From assembly GCF_005116455.1 (NCBI RefSeq), contig NZ_SWBP01000002.1, positions 248,001 to 312,000 of the forward strand: DNA of 64,000 nt, in the 5' to 3' direction. Position numbers and translations under genes: made by a program. The notes under the pieces were generated by a model that saw only the letters and a list, made by a program, of their open reading frames with translations, made no database searches and had not been told where the DNA came from. Source of the DNA: Pedobacter cryophilus (GTDB lineage Bacteria > Bacteroidota > Bacteroidia > Sphingobacteriales > Sphingobacteriaceae). Positions 23,485 through 29,430 of the stretch are shown here, in pieces. Position 1 is the stretch's first letter. Each line of letters opens with the position of its first letter.

Positions 23485-24669
23485 TTAAAAAATCTCAGCT
23501 GGATTAATTTTTAAAAACTCTTCCCAAGGCAAGCCTTTATTTCCAATCAATAAAACTTTAGAGGGGTTAAAATATTTTTGAAAAGCATTTAATCCAGAAA
23601 GACTGGTTGCATCATTGCTTTTCACTTCCAAAGCAATTACTCGACCTCGTTTTTCTAAAACAAAATCTACTTCATCGTTTCTGTGTCGCCAATAATAAAC
23701 ATTAAAATTATTAACTAAAGCGGAGTTGACTAAATGAGCTCCAATTGCCGATTCTACCATTCGGCCCCATTCTTGTTTATTTTCAAGTATTTCATTAAAA
23801 GACTCATTTCTTTGAGCGCTAATTAAAGCATTATTGTGAACCTGAAATTTTGGACTCGAAGATCTTTTTCTGATGACATCTGCGGCGTATTTTTCTATTC
23901 CTGCTAATAAACCAGCGGTATCTAAAAGTTGTAAATAATGCGAAAGCGTGGTGGTATTCCCCGCATCTTGTAATTGTCCCTGTACTTTGGTGTAAGAAAG
24001 TATTTGACCAGAGTATAAGCAGCCTAACTCAAATAAACGTTTCATTAATGCGGGTTTGTCTACTCTGGTTAACATTAAAATATCTTTAGAAATACTGGTT
24101 TCTATCAATGAATTATTGATGTAATTTTTCCATCGTTCTTCTTCATTAATTAATGAAACGGAGCCAGGATAAGCGCCAAACCAAACATATTGATTGGCAG
24201 TAAAACCAAAAGCGTCTTGCATTTCTTTAAAAGACCAATGCCCTACATAAGTAGATTCAAAACGACCGGCTAAAGATTCGGTAAGACCTTGTTGTAATAA
24301 TAACCTAGATGAACCGAGTAAGATAATTTTAATGTTGATGTTTTCTCTGCTATCTTGGTCCCATAGTTTTTTAACTATTTCGCTCCAATTATCAATTTTT
24401 TGTATTTCATCAATCACTAATAGAAATTCTTCAATTCCTTCGTTTTTGATTTTAATTCTTACACTTTCCCATAAAGAGGTTAACCAAACGCTGTCAGAAG
24501 CAGGTACTGCATCAGCAGATTCAAACTGATGCGGAATGTTTATCTCCTTAATTAATTGCCCAATCAAAGTAGTTTTACCCACTTGACGAGGTCCCATTAA
24601 CACTTGAATAAACTTTTTTGGTTCTTTTATTCTTGTTGTAAGTTGTTGTAAATAAGATCTTTGGAACAT
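23485..24669 (-). CDS. AAA-family ATPase with DUF4143 C-terminal region (second copy)
   Basis: 394 aa. Walker A GPRQVGKTT (26-34), Walker B LLVIDEIQK, arginine-rich sensor region (LLGSSRLLLQQGLTESLAGR, then FESTYVGH), a helix-turn-helix-like middle part (TTLSHYLQLLDTAGLL), and a PD-(D/E)xK-like C-terminus (RHRNDEVDFVLEKRGRVIAL, then EVKS) that is more intact than in the copy at 8154. Function unknown; members occur as solitary genes in Bacteroidota and archaea. Two identical 20-bp palindromes stand directly before the start codon. It converges on ispG with a 34-bp gap. Confidence 0.85.
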   Translation of the reverse strand: MFQRSYLQQLTTRIKEPKKFIQVLMGPRQVGKTTLIGQLIKEINIPHQFESADAVPASDSVWLTSLWESVRIKIKNEGIEEFLLVIDEIQKIDNWSEIVKKLWDQDSRENINIKIILLGSSRLLLQQGLTESLAGRFESTYVGHWSFKEMQDAFGFTANQYVWFGAYPGSVSLINEEERWKNYINNSLIETSISKDILMLTRVDKPALMKRLFELGCLYSGQILSYTKVQGQLQDAGNTTTLSHYLQLLDTAGLLAGIEKYAADVIRKRSSSPKFQVHNNALISAQRNESFNEILENKQEWGRMVESAIGAHLVNSALVNNFNVYYWRHRNDEVDFVLEKRGRVIALEVKSNDATSLSGLNAFQKYFNPSKVLLIGNKGLPWEEFLKINPAEIF

Positions 24670-24679
24670 GTTTTACAAA

Positions 24680-24721
24680 TTACTCAATATATTGAGTAAA
24701 ATTACTCAATATATTGAGTAA
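24680..24721 (-). promoter_or_regulatory. Two tandem identical 20-bp palindromes at the start of the DUF4143 ATPase gene
   Basis: TTACTCAATATATTGAGTAA is a perfect palindrome and occurs twice, at 24680-24699 and 24702-24721, 22 bp apart (two helical turns, same DNA face). The start codon of the minus-strand ATPase lies only 11 bp away. A TAATTTG box (24676-24682, minus strand) overlaps the proximal copy and would give a nearly leaderless mRNA. Geometry is that of a cooperative dimer-binding operator. Confidence 0.75.
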
Positions 24722-24771
24722 AATGAAATGATCTTATAAATTGGATTTTATAGCGTAAATGAGATCATGAT

Positions 24772-25680: not shown

Positions 25681-28600
25681 TTAAAATCTAAAACCTGTAC
25701 TAAAAGATATTACTTTACCTTCTTTAGAAAACCCATATCCTAATGATAATAAGGCTTTATTATAAAGATTAACCCATATACCGGGGCCATAACCTTGATG
25801 CCAGTTATTGTTTTCGGCAATATTTGAGCTCACTTTTGCAATGTCATAAAAAGCATAAGCTCCAAAATCTCCTGTGAATATGTAATTTCTAAAACTAGAA
25901 ACAGGAATACGCATTTCTGAATTGGCAAAATAAGTAGTTCTGCCGGCAAATCTTTGGTTACGAAAACCTCTTAGGTAGTGATTGTTTCCAATTTGGTTAG
26001 CCTGGTAAAATTTGTAATTTCCAATATTAGTCTCGGCTCCAAATCTTAAAGCAAAATTTACGGGAAAAGCAATATTAGGAGTTCCGTAAGTAGTAACTAC
26101 ACTACTAATGTGTACAAATTTATCTTTCTCGCCATTAATTTCATTAAAGTAGTTTATAGAGTTATTCCATTTAAAACCGGTTTTAGGGGCAAGTTCATTA
26201 TCTACAAAGCTCATATTGAAATAACTTTTTAGGGTTGCAAACCTACCGGGATTAGTGTAGGTACTATTTTGTGCAGCTAAAAAGGTAGGCTCGGTTCTGG
26301 TTAATATTTTTGTAAAATCAAAACCGGGCCCTATCCCAAATTTAATATGATCTGAAAGTTGATATTGGATAAAGATAGAAGAGGTTAAAACTTCTGATTT
26401 CACTCTATAAAAATCAACTTCATCATTTATATTAGTGGTGCTATTTCCTATACCGTAGTAGTTAAAAGAATAGGCAGGGCCAGCATATTTTGCATCTAAA
26501 ACTAAATCGAGTTTATTTGCTAATAGAGAATAAAAAGTGCTCTTATATTTTGCAAAATAAGCTCTTGATTGTAATGAATGTAAAAGAGATGCTTTTTGCT
26601 CATAACTGTAAGGTTGTTTTCTAAACCCATAGTGTTTTATAGAGTGGACTAAACCAATAGAAATACCATCTTTTGCATTCTTAAAATCAGCATTTATAGA
26701 AAGGGATTTTTTATCGTATTTAAATCCTTCAGGTTGGTAATCGTTAACCCAATCACTTTCAGATTTAACGATTTTTGTATTTGAACCATCTTTAAAATTA
26801 TTATCAGGAGTGTCAAAAAGCAGTGTTCTTCCATTTTTGGCTTCATCAGCCAGGTAATCTTTCCCTTTCCCTCCAACTATTCTTAATTTGATGGGCAATT
26901 TTGATTCTCCTTTAATCACTAAACTATCTTTTTCTCCTAATAAATAGATGTTTATTTCTCTAGTCAATTGATTATCGAAGTTTCTGGTATAAATAAGACC
27001 ATCTTTTTCACCGTCTTTTTTTACTTTATACATATTAACGATGGTTTCGTCTTCGGTACGGTTAATCTCTAAAAATTCATATTTATCAGACCCAGAAATA
27101 GTGACTTCTTTTGCTAATGTTTTGTAATAACTTATGGCTGTTTTTTCTAGGTTATTCCTTCTTAATTTTAGCTTTTCTATAATTAATTCACCGGTAAGTT
27201 GGTATGCCGCCGGCGGCATTTGCTTTACCGAATTGATGATCACACTATCAGTCAGTTGACTTTGCATGGTTTGTGCAATTTTAATCCAATCCGGGTAAGA
27301 AAGCTGATTCAATAAATTTCTATCTAAGTTTCTAGCTGCAATAGAGAGTTCTGCAGGGTCTTTAATTTCCTTTTCAAAAGACTGAATATCAGGAATCATC
27401 CCTTTTATTAATTTTGGTAAAAGGCCATCAAATTTGGTAAATACTTGGTCTCTATCTCTTGGAATAGGCTTATAAGTTATTTTTTTATCTTTTTCAAATT
27501 CGGCCCATCTCCATTGGTCTTCATGCCTATCCCAATCGCCAATAAGCATATCAAATAACCGGGCAGTTAAAAAACTTTTCTGATCAACTTCGTTATCATT
27601 ATCTTCTTTTAACTTTTCATACATGGTTTCTGTACTCACTGCATTTTTGGTATATCCAAAACTTTTAAATTGAGAAAGATCTTCATCAGGTCTGATTTCT
27701 ATAATACCCACTTTACCGCCAACTTCTTGTAAATATGGCCCTAATAATGTAGAATAGGGCATGTAAACTAGTTTAGGATTAGCATGAAAAACTTTTACAG
27801 CATTTGCTAAGCCAGGCACAGCTAAAGCCCCAAATGGATGTGCTGATGAAATTTGATCTTGAACAAATTCATCGGCAAAAGTATTGGTAAAGCCATCAGG
27901 TAAAAGTGCGGATGGGTCTTTATTTACTGTTCTAAATTGGTATTGATTGCCATCTTTCCCCATCATTCTTAAAGAAGTGGTTTGGTTGCCTCCTCCAAGC
28001 TGTAAAGGTGTTAAGCCTCCGGCAAACGAAGTTAATTCTAAGTAAGGAATTTTGATTGGAGTTGCCCAAACGCTACGGTAATGTTCGCCAAAGATGGCTC
28101 TCTTTACTGAAGAAGCTTTGTACTGCTCGCCAACAGCCATAATTTTTGTAGAATCAGAATAGTTAATCAGGTTTTCTTCTTTTACATCTTGTTTGCTTGC
28201 AGGTAAAGAATATAAAGGAGCTCTATAAACTAATTCACCTTTGCTACCATCGCCAATAGGCTCCCAAAACTCTACCCAACATTGCCCGTTTTTATAGTAA
28301 TTTAATCTAGAAAAACCTTTAGTGCCATGTCCAAATAATGCGCCGTTTCCTTTAAATAATGCGCTATTTTTACTTCCAGCGCCACTAATAATATGGTTAA
28401 GATCTTTGTATTTTGTTAATTGCAGGGCATGCTCATGTCCGGTAGCAATCACCACATTTTTTTGATCTTGTAAAACAGCCAGCAAGCTATTTTTTAGTTG
28501 TTGATAGTCTTTGTTAGAAAGATCTTGGTTTGATAAACCATATTGCCTTAATAAAGGATAAATAGAACCAATAACCGGCAGTGGAATAAATAAATTATCT

Positions 28601-29430
28601 CTTACCAAGGTAAGCGGAAACATGTAATCAGTAAAGGTGTAGTAGCCGCCATGTTTTCCGTTAGAAAATAAAGGATGATGCTCTGTTAAAACAATATTTT
28701 TTCCTTTGTTTCTTAGTACAATATCTTTTACTTGTGCAATAAGTTGTTCTTTAGTGGTTGAGGTGCAACCTTGCTCATAACGGTTAGATTTGCTGTATTT
28801 AGTAAGCCACCATTCGCTATCAATTACAATCACAACCAAGTTGTTGTTCATTTGAATTTCTACCGGGCCACCGCATCCATTGCTAGGTAAAAAAACATCG
28901 GTACTATCTAAGTAATTCTCAACAAATTCTTCTTGCCTTTTAATGCTGGCTAAACCTCCTGGGCGGCTTTTGTTCCAATCATGATTGCCAGGAATAAATA
29001 TTTTTTTTCCTGCAAAGTCTTTCACGATTCGCATTTGCTCAATAATTTTTTTCTCCTTTTCACCACGATCAGATGCATCAACTTCGGGCAAACCGAATTC
29101 ATAAATATTATCACCTAAAAAAATTGCGACATCTTTTTTGCTTGATGTTTTTTTGATAACGGTATCTCTTTTTCCGTTAGAAAAAACGGTGTCAATTTGG
29201 TAAAGCTGAGATTCCATTAACTTAAGCGTTGGCTCTTGCTCTCCAAGACTGGGATTTCCTACATCTCCAACTAAAAAGACGGTATAATCTAAGGTTAAAG
29301 AATCTGGGTTATTTGCTTTTTTCCAATCTCTTTCGCTTTTAGCGTAAAAAGGTTTGTAAGTAGTACAAGAAGCATAGCACAAACTGGCTACTAAAAGAAT
29401 AAGAAGTTTGGGGTGTTTAGTTGGTATCAA
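25681..29430 (-). CDS. Lipoprotein: metallophosphoesterase + kinase-like middle region + outer-membrane beta-barrel
   Basis: 1249 aa. A lipoprotein-like signal ends at Cys22. A calcineurin-type phosphoesterase domain spans about 45-400, with metal ligands in GDVGN (55-59), GDN (106-108), GNHD (148-151), HH (251-252) and GHEH (331-334). A middle region of 480-680 holds YQFRTVNKD (497-505), LIGDWDRHEDQW (629-640) and KPIPRDRDQVF (654-664), a layout like the catalytic and metal loops of CotH/HipA-type atypical kinases. The C-terminal third (about 900-1249) is an amphipathic beta series ending GFRF, like BamA/TamA-type barrels. The start is TTG, overlapping the upstream gene by 14 bp. Kinase likeness is my inference. 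Confidence 0.8.
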   Translation of the reverse strand: MIPTKHPKLLILLVASLCYASCTTYKPFYAKSERDWKKANNPDSLTLDYTVFLVGDVGNPSLGEQEPTLKLMESQLYQIDTVFSNGKRDTVIKKTSSKKDVAIFLGDNIYEFGLPEVDASDRGEKEKKIIEQMRIVKDFAGKKIFIPGNHDWNKSRPGGLASIKRQEEFVENYLDSTDVFLPSNGCGGPVEIQMNNNLVVIVIDSEWWLTKYSKSNRYEQGCTSTTKEQLIAQVKDIVLRNKGKNIVLTEHHPLFSNGKHGGYYTFTDYMFPLTLVRDNLFIPLPVIGSIYPLLRQYGLSNQDLSNKDYQQLKNSLLAVLQDQKNVVIATGHEHALQLTKYKDLNHIISGAGSKNSALFKGNGALFGHGTKGFSRLNYYKNGQCWVEFWEPIGDGSKGELVYRAPLYSLPASKQDVKEENLINYSDSTKIMAVGEQYKASSVKRAIFGEHYRSVWATPIKIPYLELTSFAGGLTPLQLGGGNQTTSLRMMGKDGNQYQFRTVNKDPSALLPDGFTNTFADEFVQDQISSAHPFGALAVPGLANAVKVFHANPKLVYMPYSTLLGPYLQEVGGKVGIIEIRPDEDLSQFKSFGYTKNAVSTETMYEKLKEDNDNEVDQKSFLTARLFDMLIGDWDRHEDQWRWAEFEKDKKITYKPIPRDRDQVFTKFDGLLPKLIKGMIPDIQSFEKEIKDPAELSIAARNLDRNLLNQLSYPDWIKIAQTMQSQLTDSVIINSVKQMPPAAYQLTGELIIEKLKLRRNNLEKTAISYYKTLAKEVTISGSDKYEFLEINRTEDETIVNMYKVKKDGEKDGLIYTRNFDNQLTREINIYLLGEKDSLVIKGESKLPIKLRIVGGKGKDYLADEAKNGRTLLFDTPDNNFKDGSNTKIVKSESDWVNDYQPEGFKYDKKSLSINADFKNAKDGISIGLVHSIKHYGFRKQPYSYEQKASLLHSLQSRAYFAKYKSTFYSLLANKLDLVLDAKYAGPAYSFNYYGIGNSTTNINDEVDFYRVKSEVLTSSIFIQYQLSDHIKFGIGPGFDFTKILTRTEPTFLAAQNSTYTNPGRFATLKSYFNMSFVDNELAPKTGFKWNNSINYFNEINGEKDKFVHISSVVTTYGTPNIAFPVNFALRFGAETNIGNYKFYQANQIGNNHYLRGFRNQRFAGRTTYFANSEMRIPVSSFRNYIFTGDFGAYAFYDIAKVSSNIAENNNWHQGYGPGIWVNLYNKALLSLGYGFSKEGKVISFSTGFRF

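Follow-up and report, generated by a model that had tools for sequence, protein, structure and literature searches.

Conserved 22-bp repeats as a putative private operator of a DUF4143 ATPase gene in Bacteroidota

Introduction

PDC-S01 has been described as an ATPase with a fused domain of the PD-(D/E)XK superfamily that ranks fourth in frequency among the candidate systems of prokaryotes (PMC12988326). In the literature searched we found no description of its mechanism, nor any report on promoter repeats, autoregulation or a relation between recognition helix and operator for this system. Likewise, no mention of PF13635 was found in this literature, the coverage of which did not extend to subscription journals and preprints. 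The one expression report found, from the one paper in which DUF4143 appeared, concerns a Thermus DUF4143 gene, for which a 6.6-fold increase has been reported when plasmid DNA and Argonaute are both present (PMC4406477), which is suggestive at most as a clue to the relief of a repression.

Palindromic autoregulatory operators as such are of an already known kind. Autorepressing HTH regulators such as the Aca (anti-CRISPR-associated) proteins and RptR likewise recognize palindromic or repeated sites in promoters of (counter-)defence genes. The regulator there is a small dedicated protein, whereas in the case described here it would be the effector itself. Family-wide private operators read by the effector were not found in the literature searched. 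A second point of comparison is provided by the Cdc6/Orc1 initiators and the plasmid iteron-binding proteins, which share the combination of AAA+ domain and winged helix as well as iterated sites with the protein studied here. In contrast to these, our ATPase lacks a replication context, has its site at its own promoter only and carries an additional nuclease domain. Its match to PDC-S01, a PADLOC phage-defence candidate, extends over the full length of the protein, although a defence role is merely inferred and antiviral activity of this gene is unproven.

Results

A tandem pair of palindromes in front of the ATPase gene

We analyzed a window of 64,000 nt of the Pedobacter cryophilus genome, this term denoting the whole stretch of DNA under study. 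The ATPase gene and the elements located upstream of it are as follows.

23485-24669, minus strand: ATPase gene, 394 aa, with AAA_14 (PF13173) and DUF4143 (PF13635), best PADLOC model PDC-S01 (profile matches)
24680-24699, no strand: proximal palindrome TTACTCAATATATTGAGTAA (sequence and orthologue alignment)
24702-24721, no strand: distal palindrome, an identical copy 22 bp upstream, with its TTGAGTAA half-site at 24702-24709 on the minus strand (sequence and orthologue alignment)
24697-24704, minus strand: predicted -7 box TAATTTTA, overlapping the distal repeat, TAAWTTTR in orthologues (inferred from alignment column composition and the Bacteroidota consensus)
24725-24728, minus strand: weak -33-like TTTC, replaced by TTTG in many orthologues and situated ~20 bp ahead of the -7 box (inferred from sequence and alignment)
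24670-24692, minus strand: predicted short 5' leader with the proximal half-site (inferred from the position of the -7 box)

The first-pass annotation had described two identical 20-bp palindromes at a pitch of 22 bp ahead of this gene, and both are present there as perfect copies, the 22-bp unit AAATTACTCAATATATTGAGTA forming an exact tandem repeat of two copies. Their improbability by chance, also claimed at that time, is borne out by the two matches at no more than three mismatches against 0.01 expected in the window, as well as by their conservation in orthologues. The start codon (24667-24669, minus strand) is separated from the proximal palindrome by 10 bp and not by the 11 bp initially given. 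The half-site that is most conserved among the orthologues is the start-side one of the proximal palindrome, reading TTGAGTAA on the minus strand (24680-24687).

Scanning for E. coli-type sigma-70 promoters yielded none on the strand of the ATPase gene. Promoters of Bacteroidota follow a -33/-7 consensus composed of TTTG, a spacing of ~19 bp and TAnnTTTG, and a pair of this type is visible in the orthologue alignment, with TTTG located ~19 bp upstream of TAAWTTTR. Its predicted -7 box is located in the distal repeat. Based on the position of this box inside the distal repeat, we predict a leader of ~20-24 nt, hence short rather than almost absent as had been suggested.

The direct repeat is conserved across Bacteroidota orthologues

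To follow the repeats through the phylum, we used orthologues from the same family and from a species-level genome collection (62-80% identical), including one from Pedobacter arcticus A12. The arrangement TTGAGTAA-N14-TTGAGTAA with a pitch of exactly 22 bp is kept in Bacteroidota orthologues: 89 distinct upstream regions contained 87 adjacent half-site pairs at exactly this distance, and exactly two half-sites (at most one mismatch) were found in 73 of the 89. In 83/87 cases, the last half-site ended at a distance of 10-11 nt from the start codon. The column profile of the alignment yielded ATTGAGTAAWTTTRCT for the distal and ATTGAGTAAATT for the proximal unit.

The reverse half-sites, which complete the palindrome, were both present in 38/87 and both absent in 30/87 cases. 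Sphingobacteriales and Chitinophagales retained the full palindrome, whereas Bacteroidales mostly exhibited the direct repeat only. Because the reverse half-sites are often absent, mainly in Bacteroidales, the conserved core is, judged from the alignment, the 22-bp direct repeat of TTGAGTAA, and the palindrome would be either a lineage-specific elaboration or lost elsewhere. The expectation that palindromes recur upstream of the orthologues was thus met by the alignment with regard to the fixed place and pitch of the repeats, but the element conserved is the direct repeat and not the palindrome as such.

Among the orthologues, residue 244 of the recognition helix (window 23938-23940) was found to be H together with palindromic operators and TTTAC, and N together with direct-repeat-only operators and TTTGC. 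This H/N change accompanies the loss of the reverse half-sites, but it is confounded with the clade.

The repeats accompany a single gene

Within the 3.99-Mb genome we detected no further copy of the palindrome at up to three mismatches, and the mismatch-free TTGAGTAA-N14-TTGAGTAA element occurs genome-wide only at this site. The ATPase gene is directly flanked by ispG and a hydrolase gene in the window. Across 80 orthologue loci no conserved neighbor gene was identified apart from a local Pedobacter synteny in 15 of them; the settings varied, with no replication gene common to the loci. The ATPase gene is hence an otherwise singleton gene without conserved partner. A toxin-antitoxin module was also considered and rejected, as a conserved adjoining partner gene was not found in the 80 loci.

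One congener retains both palindromes at the ispG-hydrolase junction ahead of a dead ATPase remnant (L237:2367-2520), in which an early stop is followed by deletion of the rest of the gene. Two other congeners with this junction possess neither the gene nor the motif.

Predicted domain architecture of the ATPase

The domains delineated for the protein are the following.

24178-24669, minus strand: AAA+ domain, residues 1-164 (predicted model and family alignment)
23836-24060, minus strand: predicted winged helix-turn-helix (wHTH), residues 204-278 (predicted model)
23917-23958, minus strand: predicted recognition helix, residues 238-251 (predicted model and operator coupling)
23542-23799, minus strand: PD-(D/E)XK nuclease-like domain, residues 291-376 (predicted model and family alignment)

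Both Pfam families passed their cut-offs (DUF4143, 95.3 bits against 28.1; AAA_14, 81.1 bits against 27), and the PADLOC PDC-S01 model matched residues 1-393 with an E value of 5e-189. The AlphaFold model exhibited a mean pLDDT of 81, with block values of ~55-82 in the wHTH part, for which it predicts helices at residues 206-218, 225-235 and 242-251 and wing strands at 255-260 and 274-277. The Walker A and B residues are kept in nearly all family members compared (n = 312), and the nuclease residues D335, E348 and K350 in 92/92 orthologues and, outside this group, in 213/220 members. This conservation of catalytic residues points, by inference, to an active ATPase-nuclease in need of tight control. 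Searching the solved structures by sequence did not reveal any informative relative. The fold search returned AAA+ matches only, all with low TM scores, among them archaeal Cdc6/Orc1 on origin DNA; as far as the predicted model allows a comparison, this resemblance is restricted to the domain level.

Several homologues beyond the phylum keep the 22-bp pitch

The same pitch was found in several more remote homologues. On a Collinsella plasmid (Actinomycetota), two palindromes TACTCAGTATACTGAGTA with a pitch of 22 bp precede a homologue of 40% identity, whereby the operator TACTCAGTATACTGAGTGATTTTACTCAGTATACTGAGTA lies 23 nt from the ATG with the Shine-Dalgarno sequence in between. Being set back behind the Shine-Dalgarno sequence, this operator is not bound to translation signals. 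Three ATTGAGTAAAATT units with a pitch of 22 bp precede the homologue of Bacteroides finegoldii (50%), ACTGCGTAAAA occurs twice at this pitch on a fecal phage contig (48%), and Thermus oshimai (49%) displays TTTTTACTAG-N6-CTAGTAAAAA. Distant alphaproteobacterial homologues (~24-27%) again follow the 22-bp pitch, with TTTCAA..GTC or TGGACGG as a unit present in two to four copies. No clear repeat was seen for some distant homologues, namely those of Thermus thermophilus HB8, Nitrosomonas and Meiothermus.

The direct repeats of the alphaproteobacterial plasmid homologues (L250, L252, L374, L376), spaced at exactly 22 bp, thus have sequences of their own (TTTCAA..GTC, TGGACGG). The DUF4143 gene on a Sulfitobacter plasmid (L252) has a defence-like setting, as it adjoins a restriction endonuclease gene and an anti-phage gene of the Qat type.

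Private repeats are widespread in the DUF4143 family

We compared non-orthologous DUF4143 genes with control genes from the same loci, scoring an upstream region as having a strong repeat at an inverted score of at least 9 or a direct score of at least 12. Strong inverted or direct repeats were found for 91/100 DUF4143 genes versus 25/183 controls, and direct repeats scoring at least 12 for 66% versus 4%. Of 108 genes sampled independently, 65% passed, many of them with palindromes of 30-45 bp ending 0-15 nt before the ATG. Archaeal homologues were not part of these samples. The spelling of the operator varies among subfamilies and its layout is clade-specific, with a pitch of 22 bp, one of 32-33 bp, or a single long palindrome (30-45 bp). 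Each of the two DUF4143 paralogues of the host genome (L002, L003) possesses a different set of repeats with a pitch of 32 bp, unique in the genome to its own promoter; all three operators of this genome therefore occur solely at their own gene.

Operator and recognition segment vary together

A sliding-window partial correlation between operator and protein similarity gave small effects (r ~0.09-0.19). It initially favored the recognition helix, but the first rank passed to the wing (268-279) or to residues 119-140 when the settings were changed. Owing to this weak and setting-dependent outcome, we used matched triplets instead, in which each gene is compared with a similar-operator and a different-operator partner of equal overall identity within 2%. 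Residues 230-247, comprising the HTH turn and the recognition helix, had the highest excess identity, with d = 0.065 and t = 8.9 for 170 genes and with d = 0.097 for 116 genes at stricter settings, against maxima of 0.019 and 0.042 in 60 operator permutations at the looser and stricter settings, respectively. The second sample alone reproduced the same top windows, and the first did so at the stricter setting only, with other windows ranking first at the looser threshold. Residues 105-124 showed a second, weaker coupling signal.

These statistics are not independent, as the sequences are related and this relatedness was not fully removed, and a segment that evolves quickly could reflect relatedness missed by the matching instead of the operator. 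Individual pairings illustrate the coupling: SKNTVERY/SKNTIERY proteins have TGACTGA-type operators in different genomes, and IPQTTLKRY proteins of Bacteroidota and Gammaproteobacteria have CCACC/GGTGGAT-type operators. Taken at the level of sequence comparison, the evidence that the recognition segment co-varies with the operator across the family is strong but not conclusive.

Discussion

The first-pass annotation had raised the possibility that the ATPase regulates its own gene through a winged-helix-like middle part. This proposal gains support from the repeats at the orthologues, the singleton gene, the predicted wHTH (204-278) and the operator co-variation, and we assign a probability of roughly 80% to the reading that the repeats are a private operator, bound by the ATPase via its own winged helix and serving autoregulation. 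Conservation, uniqueness, the solitary gene, the predicted domain make-up and the statistical coupling come from the data themselves; direct binding is inferred from strong computational support, with neither binding nor expression data at hand. According to this model, the winged helix would contact TTGAGTAA half-sites two helical turns apart, a direct spacing suggestive of subunits sitting side by side on one face of the DNA. Protein bound to these sites would lie over the -7 box and the first part of the leader, and in this way control transcription of its own gene. Because of this coverage the protein is most likely a repressor, which would hold a potentially harmful ATPase-nuclease at a low level, though repression rather than activation is an inference with less support than binding. 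The same applies to a role in defence and to the idea that ATP or DNA is the signal lifting the repression. The degraded palindromes of Bacteroidales, which remain as direct repeats, are not accounted for by a simple symmetric dimer, and this counts against the model, as does the lack of a clear repeat in some distant homologues.

Perfectly symmetric sites on the same face are typical for dimeric regulators in general, and the sites confirmed here would suit a separate host transcription factor with the ATPase gene as one member of its regulon. The double site occurs once in the host genome, however, which leaves no regulon, and the motif accompanies the gene over phyla and through differing neighborhoods. 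Moreover, paralogues in the same cell have unrelated motifs and operator similarity follows the recognition helix of the ATPase itself, rendering a separate regulator quite improbable. It is also conceivable, albeit unlikely, that the repeats, beyond their part in transcription, serve an oligomeric AAA+ ATPase-nuclease as a site of loading, nucleation or self-marking, comparable to Orc1/Cdc6 origin repeats or plasmid iterons. Such a role would account for the exact 22-bp iteration in direct orientation with up to four copies, for the AAA+ plus winged-helix make-up with its low-scoring match to the archaeal Cdc6/Orc1 fold and for the strong conservation of nuclease and ATPase residues; it is at odds with sites that lie on the gene's own promoter by the start codon and are absent from the rest of the genome, and with a gene lacking accompanying replication genes.

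An action in RNA, with a hairpin in the 5' leader controlling translation or RNA stability, appears very improbable: the proximal palindrome lies in the predicted leader and could, by inference, fold into a short hairpin, but the distal copy, sharing positions with the predicted -7 box, would remain untranscribed, Bacteroidales orthologues retain TTGAGTAA without its pairing arm, and the Collinsella operator is set away from the start codon. The AT-rich genome and the exact 22-bp tandem duplication of the unit could point to chance or to a functionless trace of duplication, an explanation that we consider practically untenable given the 0.01 matches expected in the window and refuted by conservation throughout the phylum and beyond.

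For an ATPase regulating itself as proposed, a subfamily-specific operator that diverges together with the recognition helix would allow paralogues in one genome to operate without cross-talk. Whether this extends to the whole DUF4143/PDC-S01 superfamily, each member being an effector and at the same time the transcription factor of its own gene, with private, fast-changing operators, a readable protein-DNA code and self-insulated autoregulation of many paralogues per cell, release from the operator possibly being coupled to the sensing of foreign DNA or of the ATP state, we regard as an even bet. An operator beside each gene makes it very probable that the protein is a sequence-specific DNA binder, notwithstanding the lack of binding data, and renders its regulation and the relieving signal testable. 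Furthermore, the pairs of operator and recognition segment name the DNA-reading residues, and the site of each member can be predicted from its own promoter. The many such pairs constitute a natural data set for the specificity code of wHTH domains.

Additional observations

Elsewhere in the window, an ORF of 1249 aa (25681-29430) matches a calcineurin-like phosphoesterase only on its amino-terminal side (residues 50-267), with no Pfam family at E 0.001 for the remaining ~1000 residues. The host paralogue L003 has a seemingly degenerate nuclease motif (EFR, not ExK) and a -7-like box almost at its start codon. One Bacteroidota genome (G321; loci L117, L207, L211, L213-L216, L220, L222 and L223) contains 14 DUF4143 matches, several of which have distinct operators.
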